64,000 nucleotides of DNA, from NCBI GenBank assembly GCA_026398615.1, contig JAPLSN010000030.1, positions 1 through 64,000 of the forward strand, written 5' to 3'. Of this stretch, positions 13,711 through 40,223 are shown piece by piece. Position 1 is the stretch's first letter; every line of letters starts with the position of its first letter. The notes beneath the pieces are model-generated. The model ran no database searches, was not told the origin of the DNA, and saw only the letters and a list, made by a program, of their open reading frames with translations. The position numbers and the translations under genes are program-made. This stretch comes from Spirochaetota bacterium (GTDB lineage: Bacteria > Spirochaetota > Spirochaetia > Treponematales > UBA12059).

Positions 13711-14667
13711 TCAGAACTTGAGGTAGGACTTGAGCTGGAAGACGGCGGTGCCCATCGCGACCGTGTTCTTGCCCATGAGCGGGAGGGTGTAGCCGAGCTT
13801 GACTTCGAAGGGAAGCGGGCCGATCACGAAGAAGTAGGAGGCGGAGGGGCCGACGGTGAGGAGGTTGCCGTCCGAATCGGTCAGTGCAGTGCCTTCCATT
13901 TCGGTTTCGGGCCACATCGTGTAGGTGAATGGCACGCCGACGCCGAGCTTGCCGCCGCCGAGGGCCATTTCGAAGTGGGGTTCGGCTTCGAGCTTGATGT
14001 CGTAGCCGTATGCCAGTTTGTACGTGTCGGGATAGGTGAAGAGGTCGGACGCTTCCGCGATTTCGAGGTACTGGATGTACTCGCCGAAGACGTTGACGTA
14101 GAACATCTCGTTGATCACGTAATCGAAAGAAACATCGCCGCCGAAGGCCAAGGCATGCTTGTCTGCATCCTGAATGGTCACGGGGTCACCGGCTGGCAGA
14201 TTTTCCTGCTGTTTTTCCCAATCGGCGCCGGGCATGGGGATCTTGACGCCGGGAGTGAGGGCGAGGCGCACGTTGTCCATCGGGACGGGGGCCTTGGGGC
14301 CGATGACCTGGATCTTGGCGCCGATGAACAGGTCGAAGGGGCCATTCATGTTCGAATCGGCACCAAAAAAGGCGAGAGGATCCGGATCCATCTTCGTGTA
14401 CACGTTCCAGCCCGGGGCCCAGCGGAGGCCGGCGGAAACCCAGTCGTTGACGCCGAACTCGAGGGCGGCGCCGAGGTTGACGACCGTCACATCCATGCCG
14501 GTATCCTGGCTCTTGCCGTCGGCATCGAACCCGGTGTTGCCGAATGCGTAGGCGGCGGTCAGGTAGGTGCGGAGCACGCCCGCGGGGAGCGTTATCGCGT
14601 CGTCCGCGAACAGCGGAAGGGCAAGCGCGATCATGAACACGCACAGCAGAACGAGAGCTTTCTTCAT
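13711..14667 (-). CDS. Predicted outer-membrane beta-barrel protein
   Basis: The 318-residue protein has a classic signal peptide ([21 protein letters not shown]), cleaved before DDAITLPAG. The rest is a series of alternating hydrophobic/polar strands with Gly and aromatic residues, for example [31 protein letters not shown] and [12 protein letters not shown], ending in SYLKF with a terminal Phe as in many outer-membrane proteins. I do not recognise a specific family. Proteins of this size and pattern are frequent in spirochaetes and are usually called hypothetical outer-membrane proteins. The ribosome binding site AGGAGG lies just before the ATG. The gene is divergent from the aro leader region. 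Confidence 0.75.
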
Positions 14668-14772: not shown

Positions 14773-14802
14773 TTGACAACCCATCCGTGTCCGTGTTCCA
14801 CT
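14773..14802 (+). promoter_or_regulatory. Putative aro operon promoter
   Basis: A perfect TTGACA lies at 14773-14778. The -10 is weak: TCCACT at 14797-14802 with an 18-base spacer is the best candidate. Transcription from here would begin just before the leader-peptide ATG at 14812. Confidence 0.4.
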
Positions 14803-14811
14803 CTCTGCATC

Positions 14812-14946
14812 ATGGTACGATATGCAGATACGGCGGCGAAACGCCCCGCACAGCCAAACAGCTCCGCGAACCCCGCCGCCGCCGCGCGGGCTTTCGCGTA
14901 TTATTATTTTCATACCTTCCCGGAGTCGGGCGGGCGCGGCGGCTGA
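14812..14946 (+). CDS. Putative aromatic amino acid leader peptide (attenuator)
   Basis: A 44-codon frame ends with the segment [17 protein letters not shown] and a TGA at 14944-14946. In the nine codons from 14893 to 14919 there are three Tyr and three Phe codons (TTC GCG TAT TAT TAT TTT CAT ACC TTC). Such clustering, and the FHTFP end, closely recall the enterobacterial pheA leader. Unlike the surrounding GC-rich genes, it uses TAT and TTT codons, which suits ribosome stalling. A hairpin array and an intrinsic terminator follow, then the DAHP synthase gene. I infer that the peptide senses charged tRNA-Tyr and tRNA-Phe. The ATG at 14812 is the only nearby in-frame start; a promoter close by would make it nearly leaderless. 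Confidence 0.6.
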
Positions 14947-15027
14947 GCGGATCCGAAAGGATCCGGCGGATCGTTAGATCCGCACCCGAAAGGGCGCTGA
15001 GCACCGGCTCGGCGCCCTTTTTCTTTT
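14947..15027 (+). promoter_or_regulatory. Transcription attenuator of the aro operon (alternative hairpins plus terminator)
   Basis: Three hairpins lie in a row. The first has arms 14948-14954 and 14959-14965 around GAAA. The second has arms 14966-14972 and 14977-14983 around GTTA. The third is a 14-pair stem (14989-15002 with 15007-15020, one T-G pair) followed by T-rich sequence to 15027, a strong intrinsic terminator. The 5' arms of hairpins one and two share the same GCGGATC word, so alternative pairings are possible. A small hairpin at 14982-14997 would compete with both the second hairpin and the terminator. The terminator sits before the aroF ribosome binding site, the hallmark of attenuation. 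I have not computed energies. Confidence 0.65.
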
Positions 15028-15047
15028 TCCAGGCCAGGAGGTGCAAG

Positions 15048-16088
15048 ATGGTGGTGATCATGGAAGTGGGCGCGGGAAAGCGGCAGATAGACGACGTCAT
15101 CGCGCGGATACGGTCGCTGGGATACGACGTCCACGTCTCGGAAGGCAGGGAGCGCGTCGTGATCGGGGTGATCGGCAACGAGCGGCCGCCCGATCCCGAG
15201 CCGCTGTCCCTCATGGCCGGCGTCAGGGACGTCGTCCGGGTATCCTCGCCCTTCAAGATCGCGGGCCGCGACTACCACCCCGAGGACACGACGGTGCGCG
15301 TCGGCGGGACGGAAGTGGGCGGGGGCGAGCTTTCGATCATAGCCGGCCCCTGTTCCGTCGAGAGCCGCGACCAGATCGTGGAGACGGCCTTCGCGGTCAG
15401 GGAGGCCGGGGCCACGGCCCTGCGCGGCGGGGCGTTCAAGCCGAGGTCCTCGCCCTACTCCTTCCAGGGGCTCGGCGAGGAGGGCCTGCGCTACCTGGCG
15501 GAAGCCCGGGAGCGGACGGGGCTCCCGGTCATCACGGAGGTGATGGACCCGCAGGCGGTGCCCCTCGTCGCGAGCTACGCGGACGTGCTCCAGATCGGGG
15601 CGCGCAACATGCAGAACTACGCACTCCTCACCGCGGTGGGGGATAGCCAGCGGCCGGTGCTCCTCAAGCGCGGCATGAGCGCCACGATCGAGGAGCTCCT
15701 CATGTCGGCGGAGTACATTCTGAGCCGCGGCAACATGCGCGTCATGCTCTGCGAGCGCGGGATCAGGACCTTCGAGACCTACACGCGGAACACCTTCGAC
15801 ATCAACGCCATCCCGGTCCTGAAGCGCATAACGCATCTCCCGGTGATCGCGGACCCGAGCCACGGCGTGGGCAAGCGAGAGTTCGTCGGCGCGGTCGCGC
15901 TGGCGGCGGCGGCGGCGGGCGCGGACGGCCTCATCCTGGAGGTCCACATGGATCCCGAGAACGCCCGGTCCGACGGGAGGCAGTCGCTCGACCCGCGGGA
16001 TTTCGCCGCGCTCGTGCGCAGGCTTTCGCTGGTGGCCCAGGCGGTCGGCAAGCGCGTGTCCACCATGGCCGAGCCCGTGCGGGCATGA
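15048..16088 (+). CDS. aroF: 3-deoxy-7-phosphoheptulonate (DAHP) synthase
   Basis: This enzyme joins phosphoenolpyruvate and erythrose 4-phosphate in the first step of aromatic biosynthesis. The 346-residue protein is of the class Ib type. An N-terminal ferredoxin-like domain (residues 1-70, starting [13 protein letters not shown]) is the site of Tyr/Phe feedback in the Thermotoga enzyme. It is followed by a TIM barrel with [10 protein letters not shown] (metal-binding Cys102), [24 protein letters not shown] and [10 protein letters not shown]. The ATG at 15048 is preceded by CAGGAGG. The reading frame is open further upstream, but that part overlaps the attenuator. It is the first structural gene of aroF-tyrA-aroA-aroK-aroB. 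Confidence 0.93.
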
Positions 16089-16966
16089 CGAAGCCGGGAA
16101 CGCCGTCCGGGGACGGCCTCGCCGCCTGCGCGGTGCATGTCGTGGGGCTCGGGCTCATGGGCGGATCGCTCGCGAAGGCGCTTTCTGGCAGGGTCGCCCG
16201 CCTGACGGCGGAGGACGCGAGCCCGGGGACGATCGACCCCGCCGTTGCGCAGGGCGTCATCGACGGATCCGGCCGCGCGCGGGACGCGGATATCGTCGTC
16301 CTGGCCATCCCCCCCGACGCGATCGTCGCCCTGGCGGCGTCGGTGGAAGCGTCGCCCGGCGCGCTCGTCATCGACCTCGGCAGCACGAAGGCGGCGATCT
16401 GCGGACGCCTCGACCTGCTCCCGGAGGGAGTGCTCGCGGTCGGGGGCCACCCGATGTGCGGGTTGGCCGAGAACGGCTACCGCAATTCGAGCCCGGACCT
16501 GTACCGCGGCGCCCGGTTCGTGCTATGCCCGACGGAGCGGACCACGCCCCGCGCGCGAGAGCTCGCCGAAAGCCTGGCGCGGGCGGTCGGAGCCGTACCC
16601 GTCTGGATGGATAGGGCGGCCCACGACGCGGCGACCGCGCTCACGAGCCACCTGCCGCACCTGCTCAATTTCGCGCTCATGCGCCAGGCGATGCTGGCGG
16701 CGGCGGCGGAGCCCGGCCTGTACGGGCTGGCGGCCGGCGGCTTCGACGGAGCCACGCGCCTGGCGAGGACGGACGCCGCCATGGTGGCGGGTATGCTCTC
16801 GACGAACGCATCCGGCGTGCGCGCGGCGCTCGCATCCTTCCGCGTGAGTGTCGAGTTCCTTGAAGCGTCGCTCGACGATGCCGACGTCCTGCGCGAGGAA
16901 CTCGCAGGCATCGTCGCCGCGCGGAGGGCTTATTCCGCGGCTTACGGTGAAAGGAAGCTGTCATGA
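16085..16966 (+). CDS. tyrA: Prephenate dehydrogenase
   Basis: The 293-residue protein begins with a Rossmann fold whose dinucleotide loop reads [29 protein letters not shown] segment and [12 protein letters not shown] follow, both diagnostic for arogenate/prephenate dehydrogenases. The helical C-terminal domain has [11 protein letters not shown]. It oxidises and decarboxylates prephenate to hydroxyphenylpyruvate, the tyrosine branch. There is no C-terminal ACT domain and no chorismate mutase part, so feedback control may be exerted at aroF or by the attenuator. Its start overlaps the aroF stop as ATGA. The coenzyme (NAD or NADP) and prephenate versus arogenate use are not decided by what I can see. 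Confidence 0.9.
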
Positions 16967-18282
16967 GTGAGAAATCCGGGCGGATCGTCTCTTCGTCGGG
17001 CGGCGTCATCGTCGGCGAAGCGCGGGTTCCCGGCGACAAGTCGGTCACGCATCGCGCGCTCATCCTCGGCGCCCTGGGAGGCGGGGACAGCCGGGTTTCG
17101 GGCTGGCTCCGCTCAGGCGACACCATGGCCACGCTCGGCTGCGTGCGCGCCCTCGGCGTGGAGGTGGACGACGACGGGGCGGGGGCTCTCGTCGTCCGCG
17201 GCCGCGGGCTGCACGGCCTGCGCGAAGCGGCGTCCGCCCTGAACTGCGTCCATGCCGGTACGGCCATGCGCCTCCTGGCCGGTGTGATGGCGGGGCAAGG
17301 TTTCCCGTCCACGCTCGACGGCAGCTCCCAGCTCCGCGCGCGTCCGATGCGCCGCGTCACCGGGCCGCTTCGCGACATGGGCGCGATCGTTTCGGATGCC
17401 GACGGCCGCGCGCCCCTTGCTTTCCGCCCCTCGCGCCTGGGTGGGATCGAGCATCGCATGGACGTTGCCAGCGCGCAGGTGAAAAGCGCGATCCTGCTCG
17501 CCGGCCTCTACGCCGAGGGACAGAGCGTCGTCGTGGAGCCGGGTCCTTCCCGGGACTGCACCGAGCGCATGCTGCGCCGCATGGGCGCCGATCTCCGATC
17601 GGAAACGGGGCGCGTGACGCTCGTTCCCGGACAGCCGCTCGCCCCTTTCGACATCGCGGTCCCCGGCGATCCATCTTCCGCCGCCTTCCTCCTCGCGGCA
17701 GCCGCTCTCACGAGCGGCACGGTCCGGGTCGCGGGCATCGACGCCAGCCCGACCCGCTCCGGATTCTTGGACATCCTCGCCGCGATGGGAGCACGGATCC
17801 GGGTCTCCCCGACCGCAGGCGATTCCGGCGCCGGGGACTGCTGCGACGTCGGGCTTTCAAGCGGAGTCCTCCATGGCGTCGAGGTTGGCGGAACCCTCGT
17901 CGTGCGGAGCATCGACGAATTCCCCGCGCTCATGGTCCTCGCGACGCAGGCTGAAGGCGTGACCGAGGTGAAAGAGGCCTCCGAGCTCCGCGTCAAGGAA
18001 ACCGACCGCATCGCCGTGATGGCTTCCGAGCTGCGGAAGCTCGGGGCTGTCATCGAGGAGCGGCCCGACGGCTTCCTGGTGCGCGGTCCCCAGCGCCTGC
18101 GCGGCGCCGTCGTCGACGGGCACGACGACCATCGCGTGGCGATGTCCCTGGCTTTGGCGGGCCTCGTCGCGGACGGGGAGACGGTCGTCGGGGACGCCGC
18201 CTGCGCCGACGATTCCTTCCCGGGCTTCGTCCAGACCCTCGCGTCGCTCGGAGCCAGGATCGCGAGGCTCGCCGATGCCTGA
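16963..18282 (+). CDS. aroA: 3-phosphoshikimate 1-carboxyvinyltransferase (EPSP synthase)
   Basis: EPSP synthase transfers the enolpyruvyl group of PEP to shikimate 3-phosphate. The 439-residue protein has the conserved N-terminal VPGDKSVTHRALIL, then a glycine motif CVHAGTAMRLLAG, in which the usual NAGTA reads HAGTA. The middle has ARPMRRVTGPLRDMGA and the C-terminal half LRVKETDRIAVMASEL and DGHDDHRVAMSLAL. All catalytic Lys, Arg, Asp and Glu blocks are present. The N94-like to His change is worth noting because this loop contacts PEP. The gene is linked by four-base overlap to tyrA and by eight-base overlap to aroK. Confidence 0.93.
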   Translation: MSEKSGRIVSSSGGVIVGEARVPGDKSVTHRALILGALGGGDSRVSGWLRSGDTMATLGCVRALGVEVDDDGAGALVVRGRGLHGLREAASALNCVHAGTAMRLLAGVMAGQGFPSTLDGSSQLRARPMRRVTGPLRDMGAIVSDADGRAPLAFRPSRLGGIEHRMDVASAQVKSAILLAGLYAEGQSVVVEPGPSRDCTERMLRRMGADLRSETGRVTLVPGQPLAPFDIAVPGDPSSAAFLLAAAALTSGTVRVAGIDASPTRSGFLDILAAMGARIRVSPTAGDSGAGDCCDVGLSSGVLHGVEVGGTLVVRSIDEFPALMVLATQAEGVTEVKEASELRVKETDRIAVMASELRKLGAVIEERPDGFLVRGPQRLRGAVVDGHDDHRVAMSLALAGLVADGETVVGDAACADDSFPGFVQTLASLGARIARLADA

Positions 18283-18793
18283 CGGGCGCGAACGGACGAT
18301 CGTCCTGGGCGGCTTCATGGGGACCGGCAAGACCACGGTCGGCCGCATCGTGGCGGACAGGCTCGGGAGGAAGTTCGTCGACGCGGACCTGGAGATCCAG
18401 GCTGCAGAGGGCCTGGACGCGGCGGCCATCTTCCGCGAACGGGGCGAAGCCGCCTTCCGGTCCGCCGAGGCGCGGGTATGCCGGGAGCTCGCGGGCAGAT
18501 CCGGCCTCGTCGTCGCGACGGGTGGCGGCGCGTTGCTCGATCCCGAAACGCTCGCGCGTTTCGCCGAAAGCTGCCTCGTGATCCGGCTCGACTGCGACCC
18601 GGACGGGATATCGAGGCGCATCGGCGGCGACGCCTCGCGGCCGCTTCTGGCGTCCGGCCCGGACGCGGTGCCGCGGCTCCTCGCCGGGCGCGAGGCCGCG
18701 TACGCGCGGATGGATCTGTCGGTGGACACGACGCGCCTGAGTCCCGAGGAAGCGGCCGAGGAGGTCATCCGATTATGGAACCAAGGATACTGA
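18275..18793 (+). CDS. aroK: Shikimate kinase
   Basis: The 172-residue protein phosphorylates shikimate at the 3-hydroxyl using ATP. A P-loop GGFMGTGKTTVGRIVA opens the protein, followed by FVDADLEIQ (Asp pair that binds shikimate), FRERGEAAFRSAE and the VVATGGGALLD loop. A LID Arg (RPLL) and the C-terminal YARMDLSVDT complete the fold. The length is typical. It overlaps aroA at its start and aroB by 19 bases at its end, so it is embedded in the operon and likely coupled in translation. Confidence 0.93.
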   Translation: MPDGRERTIVLGGFMGTGKTTVGRIVADRLGRKFVDADLEIQAAEGLDAAAIFRERGEAAFRSAEARVCRELAGRSGLVVATGGGALLDPETLARFAESCLVIRLDCDPDGISRRIGGDASRPLLASGPDAVPRLLAGREAAYARMDLSVDTTRLSPEEAAEEVIRLWNQGY

Positions 18794-19839
18794 ACGTACC
18801 GGGCGCCGGAGGCGGGTACCCGGTGATCATCGGGGAGGGTCTCCTCGGCGGCGAGCTGGTCCGCCGCGTCCGTGAACGCGGCGCGCGTTCGGCCTGCGTC
18901 GTCACGAACGCCACGGTCGCGCCCCTCTATGGCGAACCGCTGGCCGCAGCGCTTCCCGGCGGCTTCCTCGCGGTCCTGCCCGACGGCGAGGAACACAAGG
19001 GGATCGAGTCGGTCCGCGCCGTCTGGGACGTTCTCGTCGCCGGAGGCGCCGACCGCGGGACGTTGATCGTGGCCCTCGGCGGCGGGGTCGTCGGCGACAC
19101 CGCCGGCTTCGCCGCCGCGACCTTCATGCGCGGGCTTCCCCTTATCCATGCACCTACGACCCTGCTGGCGATGCTGGATTCCAGCATCGGGGGGAAGACG
19201 GGCGTCAACCTCCCTGCGGGCAAGAACCTCGTGGGCGCGTTCAAGGACCCCGAAGCGGTCATCGCCGACCTTTCGACGCTCGGGACCCTGCCGGAGGTCG
19301 AACGCCGTTGCGGGCTCGCCGAAGCCATCAAGTCCGCCCTCGTCGGGGACGCCGTCCTGTTCGGGCGCCTCCTGTCAGGCGAAGCCATCCCCGCGGCAGG
19401 ACTCGTCGTCGCCGCGGCCGCCGTGAAGGTACGCCTCGTGGGGGAGGATCGGCTCGAGCACGGTTCCAGGGCGTTCCTCAACCTCGGCCATACCTTCGGC
19501 CACGCGATCGAAGCCTTGAGCGGTTTTTCCGCCAGACACGGCGAGGCCGTGGCCGTCGGGCTCGTCGCCGCGGCCAGGCTTTCCGCGCGGCTCGGGCTCT
19601 GTCCCCCGCGGCTTCCGATCGACGTTGAACGGGCGGTGGCCGGCGCCGGCCTGCCCGTCGGGACCGGAAACCTGGCTTCCGGGGCGATCCTCGACGCGAT
19701 GGGAACCGACAAGAAGTGCAGGGGCGGGGAACTTCCGTTCGTCCTCCTCGAAGACGCGGGCAAGCCCGTGCTGGTACGCGGCGTTCCCCGATCGGACCTT
19801 GCCGCCGTCCTCGACGGGATGGGGGAACGCGGGGCGTGA
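18775..19839 (+). CDS. aroB: 3-dehydroquinate synthase
   Basis: AroB converts DAHP to 3-dehydroquinate with NAD+ and a divalent metal. The 354-residue protein carries the family blocks ALGGGVVGDTAGFAAATFMR, PTTLLAMLDSSIGGKTGVN and GAFKDPEAVIADL. The metal-ligand sites are CGLAEAIKS (Glu), NLGHTFGHAIEA (His) and RHGEAVAVG (His). The start at 18775 lies inside aroK; the open frame continues further upstream but similarity begins with MEPRILNVPG. It is the last gene of the operon and converges on aroC. No obvious intrinsic terminator separates the two. Confidence 0.93.
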   Translation: MEPRILNVPGAGGGYPVIIGEGLLGGELVRRVRERGARSACVVTNATVAPLYGEPLAAALPGGFLAVLPDGEEHKGIESVRAVWDVLVAGGADRGTLIVALGGGVVGDTAGFAAATFMRGLPLIHAPTTLLAMLDSSIGGKTGVNLPAGKNLVGAFKDPEAVIADLSTLGTLPEVERRCGLAEAIKSALVGDAVLFGRLLSGEAIPAAGLVVAAAAVKVRLVGEDRLEHGSRAFLNLGHTFGHAIEALSGFSARHGEAVAVGLVAAARLSARLGLCPPRLPIDVERAVAGAGLPVGTGNLASGAILDAMGTDKKCRGGELPFVLLEDAGKPVLVRGVPRSDLAAVLDGMGERGA

Positions 19840-37836: not shown

Positions 37837-39801
37837 CTACCGCGTCCCTCCAAGCCGCATTTCGAACCCGGCCCGGAGCGAGAAACCGGGCATGGGATAG
37901 CCCTGCACCGATTCGTAGCGTTCATCGAGCAGGTTCTCGGCGTCGAGCGTGAAAGCCGTTGTCTCGCCGGCCCCGAGCCTCAGGTGGGCGTTCACGACGA
38001 GGCGGGCGGGATCGTAGGCCACGTTGGCCATCTCCTGGTAGCGGAGGCCCGCGTAGTCGAAGTCCACGCTCGCCCGCAGCTTCCTTTCCTCGAAGGCCAG
38101 CGTGAGGTCGAAGGAATGCTCGCTCACCATGGGCACGCGGAGATCGTCGTAGAGGTCGAGATCGCCGGAGAGCTGGTAGCTGTGGAGGAACGCGTATGAA
38201 AACCGCGCCGAGAAGGGGCTGCTTCCGGAGAGCCCGCCTTCGAGCTCGACTCCGGGATAGAAGGCCGAACCGTGGTTGCCCGGCCGCCATACACCGTCGC
38301 CGCCGGGCTGCCAGAGGATGACGTCTTCCACGTAGCGGGCGTGGATCGTGGCCGCGATCGACAGTCCCCGGTCTTCGTGGCGCAGCCCGATGTCGCCGCC
38401 CGAGGAGGATTCCGGTTCCAGGCCGGGGTTGCCCTCGACTCCCGGGGAAGCGGGCCAGTAGAGGTCGTTGAAGCTCGGGGAACGATATGCCGTGGAGGCG
38501 TTGGCGCTCGCCGTGAGGGTCGGCGTGACGGCGCGGGCGGCTCCGAGCGACAGGGAGAAACCCGAGGGGAAATCGCTCGTCCAGTCGAAGCGGGCCGCGG
38601 ACACGAGCGTCCAGGCCCCGAAGGTGATCGCGGGTTCGACATAGGCTCCCGCGGAAAAACGCTCGGGAACCCCGCCAGAGGAATCCGTGACGTTGCTCGA
38701 ATCGAGGCGTTCGTAACGGCCGGTGAGTCCTGACCCGACCGTGAGCCGGTCGTTCGCCAGCAGCGACCACCGCGCGTCGAGGCCGGCGCGGGAAGCCAGG
38801 TTGGCATCGTCCTCCTCGTCCACGGTTTCGCGGTAGAGCGTTCCGGACGAAATGCCGTAGGCGGACGCCTCGAAGGCGACCCTGTCGGACAAAAACGCGT
38901 CCGTCGAGTACCCGAGGTTCGCCCGCACCTGCGTGTCCTCCTCGGTCGCCCCGGGGGTCGGAGCGTCGATCGGGCCCGGAACCCCGAGGCTCCTGAGTGA
39001 GCCTGCGAGGCCCGCGTCGAGGCTGCCCGCCCATGCGACGCCGTTCCACGATGCCGAAGCCCAACCCGAGAGGAGATCGGCATTCTCCCGGGACCGCTTC
39101 GTTCCGTCCGTGTCCCGGCAGAGGTATGCGTTGGCCGACCGTTCCCCGCCGATACCCATGGCGAAGCCACCGGGGAGACCGAGATGGATGGAAGCTTCCT
39201 GGCCGTCCGCGAGGGAGAGGAAATCGGGCGCGACGTCCTTTTCGGAGATTCCCGAACCCGTCACGGAGGCGAACGGCAATCTCGAAACGTTCGCGGCCTT
39301 GATGTCCAGGACGGGACCCGCCAGGTCGCGGGCGCGCCTGGTCCTGATCAGGATAACGCCGCCGACGGCGTCGGGTCCGTACTGGGCGCTCGCCCCGCCC
39401 TTCACGACTTCGATGGATTCGATGTCCTCGGGCGCGAGACCCAGCTTCGAGAAATCGGTGAGACCGCTCGAGGGATCGGAAACGGGCGAGCCGTCCACGA
39501 GCACGAGGACCTGGTTCGTGGTGGATCCGCGGATGGATGCGGCCGCCTGGGACCCGGCCGGGCCGTTCGACGAAACCGATATGCCGGGAAGGAGTCCGAG
39601 CACCGCGGCGACGCTGGCGGCGCCGGAGGCGTCGATCTCCTCCGCCGTCATCATGCTCCGCCCGGCCGTGGGCGCCGGTGCGATCTCGGGCGCTTTCGCG
39701 CGTATCTCCACCGAACCCGAAACCGCGGGGTCCGCATGGAGGAACGGCGCGTAAAGGGAAACGAGAACGGCCAGCTGAACGACGGCACGATGATTGGTCA
39801 T
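37837..39801 (-). CDS. TonB-dependent outer-membrane receptor
   Basis: The 654-residue protein has a signal peptide (residues 1-23) and a plug domain with RSMMTAEEIDASGAASVAAV, ASIRGSTTNQVLVLVDG and IESIEVVKGGASAQYGPDAV. A 22-strand-type barrel follows, containing a FNDLYWPASPGVEGNPGLEP block and ending in LDAENLLDERYESV, which is diagnostic of the receptor C-terminus. It should import a scarce ligand such as a siderophore or cobalamin. No cobalamin riboswitch was recognised upstream, so the ligand is open. The start at 39801 has GGGAGG before it. The final residue is Arg and not an aromatic. Confidence 0.9.
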   Translation of the reverse strand: MTNHRAVVQLAVLVSLYAPFLHADPAVSGSVEIRAKAPEIAPAPTAGRSMMTAEEIDASGAASVAAVLGLLPGISVSSNGPAGSQAAASIRGSTTNQVLVLVDGSPVSDPSSGLTDFSKLGLAPEDIESIEVVKGGASAQYGPDAVGGVILIRTRRARDLAGPVLDIKAANVSRLPFASVTGSGISEKDVAPDFLSLADGQEASIHLGLPGGFAMGIGGERSANAYLCRDTDGTKRSRENADLLSGWASASWNGVAWAGSLDAGLAGSLRSLGVPGPIDAPTPGATEEDTQVRANLGYSTDAFLSDRVAFEASAYGISSGTLYRETVDEEDDANLASRAGLDARWSLLANDRLTVGSGLTGRYERLDSSNVTDSSGGVPERFSAGAYVEPAITFGAWTLVSAARFDWTSDFPSGFSLSLGAARAVTPTLTASANASTAYRSPSFNDLYWPASPGVEGNPGLEPESSSGGDIGLRHEDRGLSIAATIHARYVEDVILWQPGGDGVWRPGNHGSAFYPGVELEGGLSGSSPFSARFSYAFLHSYQLSGDLDLYDDLRVPMVSEHSFDLTLAFEERKLRASVDFDYAGLRYQEMANVAYDPARLVVNAHLRLGAGETTAFTLDAENLLDERYESVQGYPMPGFSLRAGFEMRLGGTR

Positions 39802-40223
39802 CGCGGCCTCCCACTTGGGGGAGGGCTCGAGGCAAGATCCCGACATGCCCGGACGAACGGGAACGAGTGAGGCCGGTACTGGTTGTCAGGCTTCAGGCTT
39901 CATGCACGGGGGGCGGATCATCACGGCTTTCCTCAAGTCCTCGGAGTTTGACTTCCCGCACCTTCCCCTTTTTCGGGACCGGCGCGCGGAGCATGCCGCG
40001 GGATGGTTTCCTGACTTCCGGATCGTCTGGCGCATCGACGCCTTCTCACGGCCGCTCGGGCCGCAATGGCTGTCCCTGTCCTGTGCTGACGGGACTCAAG
40101 TCGATCGTATCCCCGGTTACAGTGGCGGGACCGTTGCGGATTCTCACCGCATTCCACGATTCCCCCGGCTTTCTCCCATTGTCCCCTGTGACCGGACGTT
40201 TCGTCAAGCCCGTTTTGCCGCCG
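39802..40223. other. Intergenic, upstream of the receptor gene
   Basis: No gene supported. A short inverted repeat CCTCCC-CCAAGTG-GGAGG overlaps the receptor ribosome binding site region (39808-39826). I see no known riboswitch. Confidence 0.35.

Follow-up and report, generated by a model that had tools for sequence, protein, structure and literature searches.

A ribosome-mediated transcription attenuator, responding to the charged state of tRNA-Tyr and/or tRNA-Phe, very probably controls the five genes aroF-tyrA-aroA-aroK-aroB of a Spirochaetota bacterium. The window, by which we mean the whole 64 kb stretch of DNA analysed (65% GC), lies on a contig of 65.8 kb; the genome comprises 3.38 Mb and is 99% complete. 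The initial annotation had placed a Tyr/Phe leader peptide and a terminator ahead of aroF in the aro operon; both are present before aroF-tyrA-aroA-aroK(-aroB), and the design recurs in relatives. What lies here is a specific control element, so far unannotated, for the step that opens aromatic amino acid synthesis; it is not a one-off. Translation of the leader, ribosome stalling, the exact antiterminator and the identity of the sensed amino acid (Tyr or Phe) are our reading of sequence and predicted folding.

The leader and terminator upstream of aroF

The features of the region are as follows, in window coordinates.

13711 to 14667, minus strand: divergent gene upstream of the leader, 318 aa (ORF list)
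14773 to 14778, plus strand: TTGACA, the -35-like element of the putative promoter of the leader, 6/6 consensus positions (sequence)
14797 to 14802, plus strand: putative weak -10-like element TCCACT, 3/6 consensus positions, 18 nt past the -35
14812 (ATG) to 14946 (TGA), plus strand: leader ORF, 44 aa (sequence, ORF list)
14893 to 14919, plus strand: run of control codons, F A Y Y Y F H T F, with Tyr and Phe three times each (codon-run scan)
14931 to 14941, plus strand: proposed region 2, the antiterminator strand, within the last leader codons (prediction)
14944 to 14946, plus strand: leader stop codon TGA (sequence)
14948 to 14965, plus strand: hairpin A, CGGATCC-GAAA-GGATCCG, a possible pause or spacer hairpin (folding)
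14966 to 14983, plus strand: hairpin B, GCGGATC-GTTA-GATCCGC (folding)
14988 to 15021, plus strand: intrinsic terminator stem-loop, 15 pairs (terminator scan)
14995 to 15006, plus strand: proposed region 3, within the 5' arm and loop of the terminator (prediction)
15036 to 15041, plus strand: Shine-Dalgarno (SD) sequence AGGAGG of aroF (sequence)
15048 to 16088, plus strand: aroF, DAHP synthase with an N-terminal ferredoxin-like domain (family matches)
16085 to 16966, plus strand: tyrA, prephenate dehydrogenase (family matches)
16963 to 18282, plus strand: aroA, EPSP synthase (family matches)
18275 to 18793, plus strand: aroK, shikimate kinase (family matches)
18772 to 19839, plus strand: aroB, 3-dehydroquinate synthase, with a presumed start (named by reading the sequence, without a family library)

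The aroF product matches PF18152 and PRK08673, and its top-scoring solved chain is 1rzm (3pg9 is the same sequence). The five aro genes are presumably transcribed as one message, and a chorismate synthase gene lies on the opposite strand. DAHP synthases of the aroF kind are subject to feedback by Tyr and Phe. In line with the correspondence between leader codons and operon that was drawn in the initial annotation, DAHP synthase is the first enzyme of the pathway and tyrA is the second gene of the cluster. The product of the divergent gene upstream has no Pfam or NCBIfam matches, and full-length homologues (41-57% identity) are found in three of the 22 other family genomes. Since this gene is divergent, a terminator on the plus strand should end a transcript that began in the same gap.

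The six Tyr/Phe codons within nine and the leader stop codon lie where the initial annotation had put them. Its placement of the codon run at the end of the frame did not hold, with eight codons separating the last Phe from the stop. The likeness of FHTFP to the ending of the enterobacterial pheA leader is therefore superficial. FAYYYFHTF is the sole stretch with at least six F/Y in nine codons in the six frames of the 64 kb window, where two stretches have at least five. The degenerate DNA pattern TWYNNNTAYTAYTAYTTY has one match in the 3.38 Mb genome, which is the leader (a reversed control pattern also has one match). Clustered codons for the end products in a short 5' leader ORF, as expected of an attenuator, are thus present in the window. 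The ORF listing begins the leader frame farther upstream, at the in-frame ATG 14734 (70 aa). ATG 14822 was rejected as a start because its frame reads Ile codons rather than Tyr/Phe codons.

The putative promoter of the leader transcript consists of TTGACA and the weak -10-like element, which is preceded by TG at 14794-14795; a sigma-70 site scan of the leader region found no full site. The leader ORF of the window is probably leaderless or nearly so, because no SD was seen in the sequence upstream of ATG 14812 and this ATG lies 9 nt past the -10-like element. We also scanned 38 loci that were hand-picked for having a leader ORF, considering starts 30-45 nt past the -35 only; in this biased set and range, 23 loci have, 30-45 nt ahead of an in-frame start, a promoter that matches at 9 or more of 12 positions, compared with 0-6 of 38 pseudo-starts in 20 repeats. 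In 21 of those 23, a gap of 6-9 nt separates the end of the -10 from the start codon, so that the message would begin at the start codon or within a few bases of it. Many leader ORFs in the set look leaderless on this basis. Purine-rich, SD-like sequences stand in place of a promoter-adjacent start in L100, L101 and L102.

Attenuators also have an intrinsic terminator that separates the leader ORF from the first structural gene, and one is found here. The stem has 15 pairs (13 in the core according to a second detector, at -25.5 kcal/mol), rather than the 14 first counted, and is placed before the aroF SD as originally described. It has a U-rich tail at 15018-15028 and its stem ends 26 nt from the aroF ATG. 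The weakness of the leader promoter would suit another arrangement, in which this terminator marks the end of a small RNA gene with no connection to aroF, which would be transcribed from a separate promoter farther downstream. This is extremely unlikely, as the 26 nt between the stem and the ATG are partly occupied by the U-rich tail and the SD, and a similar arrangement is found in relatives.

The initial annotation also described hairpins after the leader stop, and two palindromic ones (A and B) are found there. Alternative pairings among their four arms, drawn by eye, were set aside; they leave the terminator untouched. None of 200 dinucleotide shuffles folds as well as 14812-15050 (z -3.95). 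Another, weak site of six pairs that resembles a terminator, at 14884-14899, overlaps the Tyr codons and is probably a chance occurrence (0.5 expected there by chance).

Hairpins A and B would be superfluous in a minimal attenuator, which would fit a terminator under the control of a protein or of an RNA that binds either a metabolite or tRNA, with the Tyr/Phe ORF arising by chance. We consider such control very unlikely. The window leader has no Rfam match at the gathering score, and the six matches obtained at E values up to 5 are all far below their gathering scores. Moreover, the codon run is unique in the window and the genome, and similar runs recur before other aroF genes, as described below for the attenuator design.

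Recurrence of Tyr/Phe leaders upstream of DAHP synthase genes

We scanned 199 regions upstream of DAHP synthase genes, of which 122 are from the same phylum (13 from the window's own family, including the window itself) and 77 are from elsewhere. The latter derive from 80 loci in records of named genomes, whose titles include no spirochaete, after three were dropped for having too short an upstream region. Beyond 30 stretches that were fetched automatically, 80 were chosen by hand, with near-duplicate groups thinned, and the wider search covered 392 genomes out of a larger group, with loci taken from among the matches listed. In this sample of best aroF matches, which is not random, ORFs with at least six F/Y/W in eight residues were found in 25/199 regions (20/122 and 5/77); the reverse strand had one, and ten mononucleotide shuffles had 0-1. 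The window leader scores 5 in 8; at that looser threshold there were 36 loci, compared with 14 on the reverse strand and 2-9 in shuffles.

The initial annotation had named conservation of the Tyr/Phe run and terminator upstream of aroF as a check. A leader ORF with at least 4 in 8 was followed by an intrinsic terminator in 30/199 regions (25/122 and 5/77) compared with two on the reverse strands, the 30 comprising 24 distinct terminators (the near-identical loci L151/L154/L157/L164, L160/L162/L181 and L172/L175 share theirs) and a few doubtful loci (L107 is the end of an upstream gene by reading, and L122, L080 and L094 are weak). Requiring at least 5 in 8 left 25 loci and none on the reverse strand, while a stricter terminator detector gave 20/199, compared with one on the reverse strand and none in three shuffles. 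The detector's choice of terminator, or its distance, looks off in L101 and L160. No pair of leader and terminator was found in the other 169 regions, and the design is recurrent but not universal. Examples of the leaders are MKNITYAYYYYWYSHKACRVLAK (L151), MKGNLFSNNFKSIYAYYFFYYGV (L202) and MKHGFSVKNDMRSFCASGALRGVYAYYYYRFFTLCGEVLPA (L172). Similar leaders occur outside the phylum set in L032 (Chloroflexi), L044 ('Deltaproteobacteria'), L075 and L082 (Calditrichota) and L080 (Clostridiales).

Three AT-rich loci (L158, L187 and L202) have a different geometry. Their leaders read MKG..SIYAYYFFYYGV, with the stop codon in a hairpin loop followed by a T-rich stretch, and the hairpin around the leader stop in L187 and L202 is GGCGTTTAAGACGCC. 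They appear terminator-like in one scan and stand outside the 30 counted loci. In L160, a TD-1 RNA (RF03155; minus strand, 69-189) lies between the leader terminator and aroF. This was the sole Rfam match over 20 relatives' loci, and a search for TD-1 RNA in the Treponema literature gave no match.

An aroF match is present in 13 of the 23 genomes of the window's family. Six of these 13 loci carry a Tyr/Phe leader (L001, L002, L005, L007, L008 and L011; L007 has only 4 in 8) and seven have no ORF that reaches 4 in 8. Relatives that have aroF and lack both the Tyr/Phe run and the terminator had been put forward as evidence against the attenuator; the seven loci without a leader bear on this, although they carry a different type of aroF, with 55-60% identity and a match that starts past the N-terminal domain. 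In the leader-free loci (L003, L004, L006, L009, L010, L012 and L013), aroF is divergent from a gene read as an aminotransferase. GTATAC occurs within 150 nt of aroF in six of these seven and is perhaps a repressor site.

Ribosome position and the choice between RNA structures

In the proposed mechanism, transcription would begin shortly before ATG 14812, and ribosomes would translate the leader ORF, probably without an SD. When Tyr and Phe are both sufficient, the ribosome would reach the stop codon at 14944 and cover 14931-14941, in which case the terminator at 14988-15021 would form and transcription would stop before aroF. When Tyr- or Phe-tRNA is scarce, the ribosome would stall on the YYYF..F codons and leave 14931-14941 exposed. 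The free strand could then pair with 14995-15006 before the 3' arm of the terminator is made, and RNA polymerase would continue into aroF. The predicted antiterminator (14931-14941/14995-15006) encloses hairpins A and B.

Folding the leader with and without a ribosome, as the initial annotation had suggested, revealed no switch at equilibrium and suggested one when only the downstream RNA was folded. At equilibrium, the terminator of the full leader has a probability of at least 0.96 in every ribosome state tested, so the choice must fall during transcription. Equilibrium folding with ribosome masks did not tell the states apart and was replaced by co-transcriptional-style folding, in which only the RNA from the ribosome edge up to the terminator 3' arm is folded and capture of the 5' arm is scored. 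For the window, capture is 0.70-0.76 with the ribosome on the Tyr/Phe codons compared with 0.14-0.22 with the ribosome at the stop codon. Three footprints were combined with four stall codons, and across these 12 settings 0-9 of 100 dinucleotide shuffles were as good. Judged by simple duplex energy, the stop-codon region of the window is no more complementary to the terminator arm than expected by chance (36/200 shuffles as good), and over the whole upstream region of the window 58/100 shuffles were as good. For the window alone, the modelled switch is suggestive, not proven. Pairing of 14861-14868 with the terminator 5' arm was set aside as an antiterminator, being present even without a stalled ribosome (pairing across the ribosome was allowed).

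We applied the same measure to the 30 loci with a leader and terminator, with a single footprint and stall codon for each locus (settings were varied for the window only), and obtained a mean difference of 0.51 compared with 0.10 in dinucleotide shuffles. The mean difference over the 24 distinct terminators is 0.47, and 14/30 loci lie at or below 5 of 100 shuffles; in this run the window lies at 8 of 100. L075 shows a difference of 0.00, and L094 and L101 show little. The predicted pairing can be read from the sequence of several loci. The leader end AGAGTTCT of L151 pairs with the terminator arm AGGAACTCT over eight pairs (one G-U, no mismatch) and the leader end TGCAGAGC of L169 pairs with the terminator arm GCTCTGCA over eight pairs without mismatch. 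CCTGCAG pairs with CTGCAGG in L096 and L100 (seven pairs), and L102 has six pairs, while L106, L121 and L198 have no mismatch-free pairing of leader end and terminator arm in the stretch tested. Taken together, the switch measure and a pairing that recurs with differing sequences speak for the classical logic in the group, which is thereby also our best model for the window.

No U-tailed terminator was detected in the family leaders other than the window's (L002, L005, L007, L008 and L011). L002, L005, L007 and L008 have GC-rich hairpins, and the aroF SD of L011 lies within a large hairpin. These five loci, together with a window terminator that equilibrium folding never abolishes, would agree with a real leader peptide that acts by another route, either translational control through hiding of the SD or Rho-dependent termination, with the intrinsic terminator secondary. 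This is unlikely for the window, whose own 15-pair terminator with a U-rich tail sits so close to the aroF start, and transcription attenuation remains our preferred reading.

Known attenuators and the origin of the aro genes

Leaders of this general kind have precedents. Corynebacterium glutamicum is an actinobacterium whose aroF has an aroR leader peptide, reportedly described by Neshat et al. in 2014. Morbach et al. are said to have shown in 2000 that the ilvBNC leader peptide of the same species is formed without a ribosome binding site, in which it resembles the window, although ilvBNC is a branched-chain amino acid operon. Lopatovskaya et al. reportedly published a study on attenuation in bacteria in 2010. 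The enterobacterial pheL-pheA attenuator has Phe codons in its leader peptide and ribosome-mediated logic, as proposed for the window; it controls pheA and is not known to contain a Tyr run. According to the parts of one paper available to us, which also mention pheL-pheA, ribosome stalling on the Phe-Tyr-Phe codons of aroR raises transcription of the C. glutamicum aroF operon (PMC11802643). The C. glutamicum aroF leader peptide is likewise reported in accessible parts of a second paper (PMC4046766). Like the window, aroR is a short ORF with Phe/Tyr codons before a DAHP synthase gene; its Phe-Tyr-Phe differs from FAYYYFHTF, and the likeness is one of function and place only. In the Acholeplasma uORFC-13-1 motif, a putative uORF with Phe codons directly precedes an apparent intrinsic terminator and aroF, but, as far as the consulted portion of the source describes it, the motif has a minimum of only one Phe residue, possesses a conserved base-paired structure of its own and comes from Acholeplasma and environmental sequences (PMC8632094). 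An older comparative study of Actinobacteria reports, in the portion consulted, no case of attenuation in their Phe or Tyr operons (PMC1262725). Among the matches listed in our search of the open-licence literature, none described a leader-peptide attenuator of aro genes in the window's group. The principle of leader attenuation of aroF is already known from Corynebacterium, and by analogy the window appears to be a further case.

For AroR, the excerpted text states that Tyr had no effect on aroF transcription despite the Phe-Tyr-Phe sequence (PMC11802643). The same attenuator in the window might accordingly answer to one amino acid, either Phe alone as in Corynebacterium or Tyr alone, a version that overlaps the main model. 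The runs of L155 and L160, which are largely Tyr, point the same way. The window has three codons of each amino acid, and the runs are mixed in several relatives; we regard a single signal as possible but doubtful and retain a model in which tRNA-Tyr and/or tRNA-Phe is sensed.

The aro genes themselves appear to have a foreign origin. In the window, aroF is 70-75%, tyrA 57-64% and aroA 60-63% identical to the genes of Anaerolineae loci L014-L017, which have the same gene order; no aroK or aroB matches were found within the DNA examined around these loci. The window aroA is only 31-38% identical to its matches in 14/22 other family genomes. Contamination of the contig was rejected, as a neighbouring regulator gene is conserved (74-79% identity) in 20/22 other family genomes and the contig therefore belongs to the family. 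From these identities, aroF, tyrA and aroA (15048-18282) look to have been acquired from an Anaerolineae-like donor. In L014-L020, aroF lies directly 3' of a gene read as chorismate mutase, and no ORF with four aromatic residues in eight was found upstream of it, leaving the nearest sampled relatives of the donor without a leader. On the simplest reading, the acquired genes may have ended up behind an attenuator of a type that relatives of the recipient carry. Genes apparently from another phylum would then be under an amino-acid switch of a type seen among the relatives of their new host.

A wider scenario, plausible but held tentatively, is that Tyr/Phe leader attenuators of DAHP synthase, many of them leaderless, are found across the phylum and have been re-attached to different aroF types, including the Anaerolineae-like one. 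The sensor peptide would have been kept while the output switch diverged into intrinsic terminators and SD-sequestering or non-U-tailed hairpins. The natural variants (a terminator or an SD-hiding hairpin, a leaderless or an SD start) would be useful for testing how attenuators evolve.

Elsewhere in the window, the Rfam matches at the gathering score are limited to a tRNA and a cobalamin riboswitch (40006-40155, minus strand, 67.1 bits). Directly downstream of the riboswitch is a 669-aa ORF (37837-39846, minus strand) that, judged by its sequence without a library run, reads like a TonB-dependent receptor.
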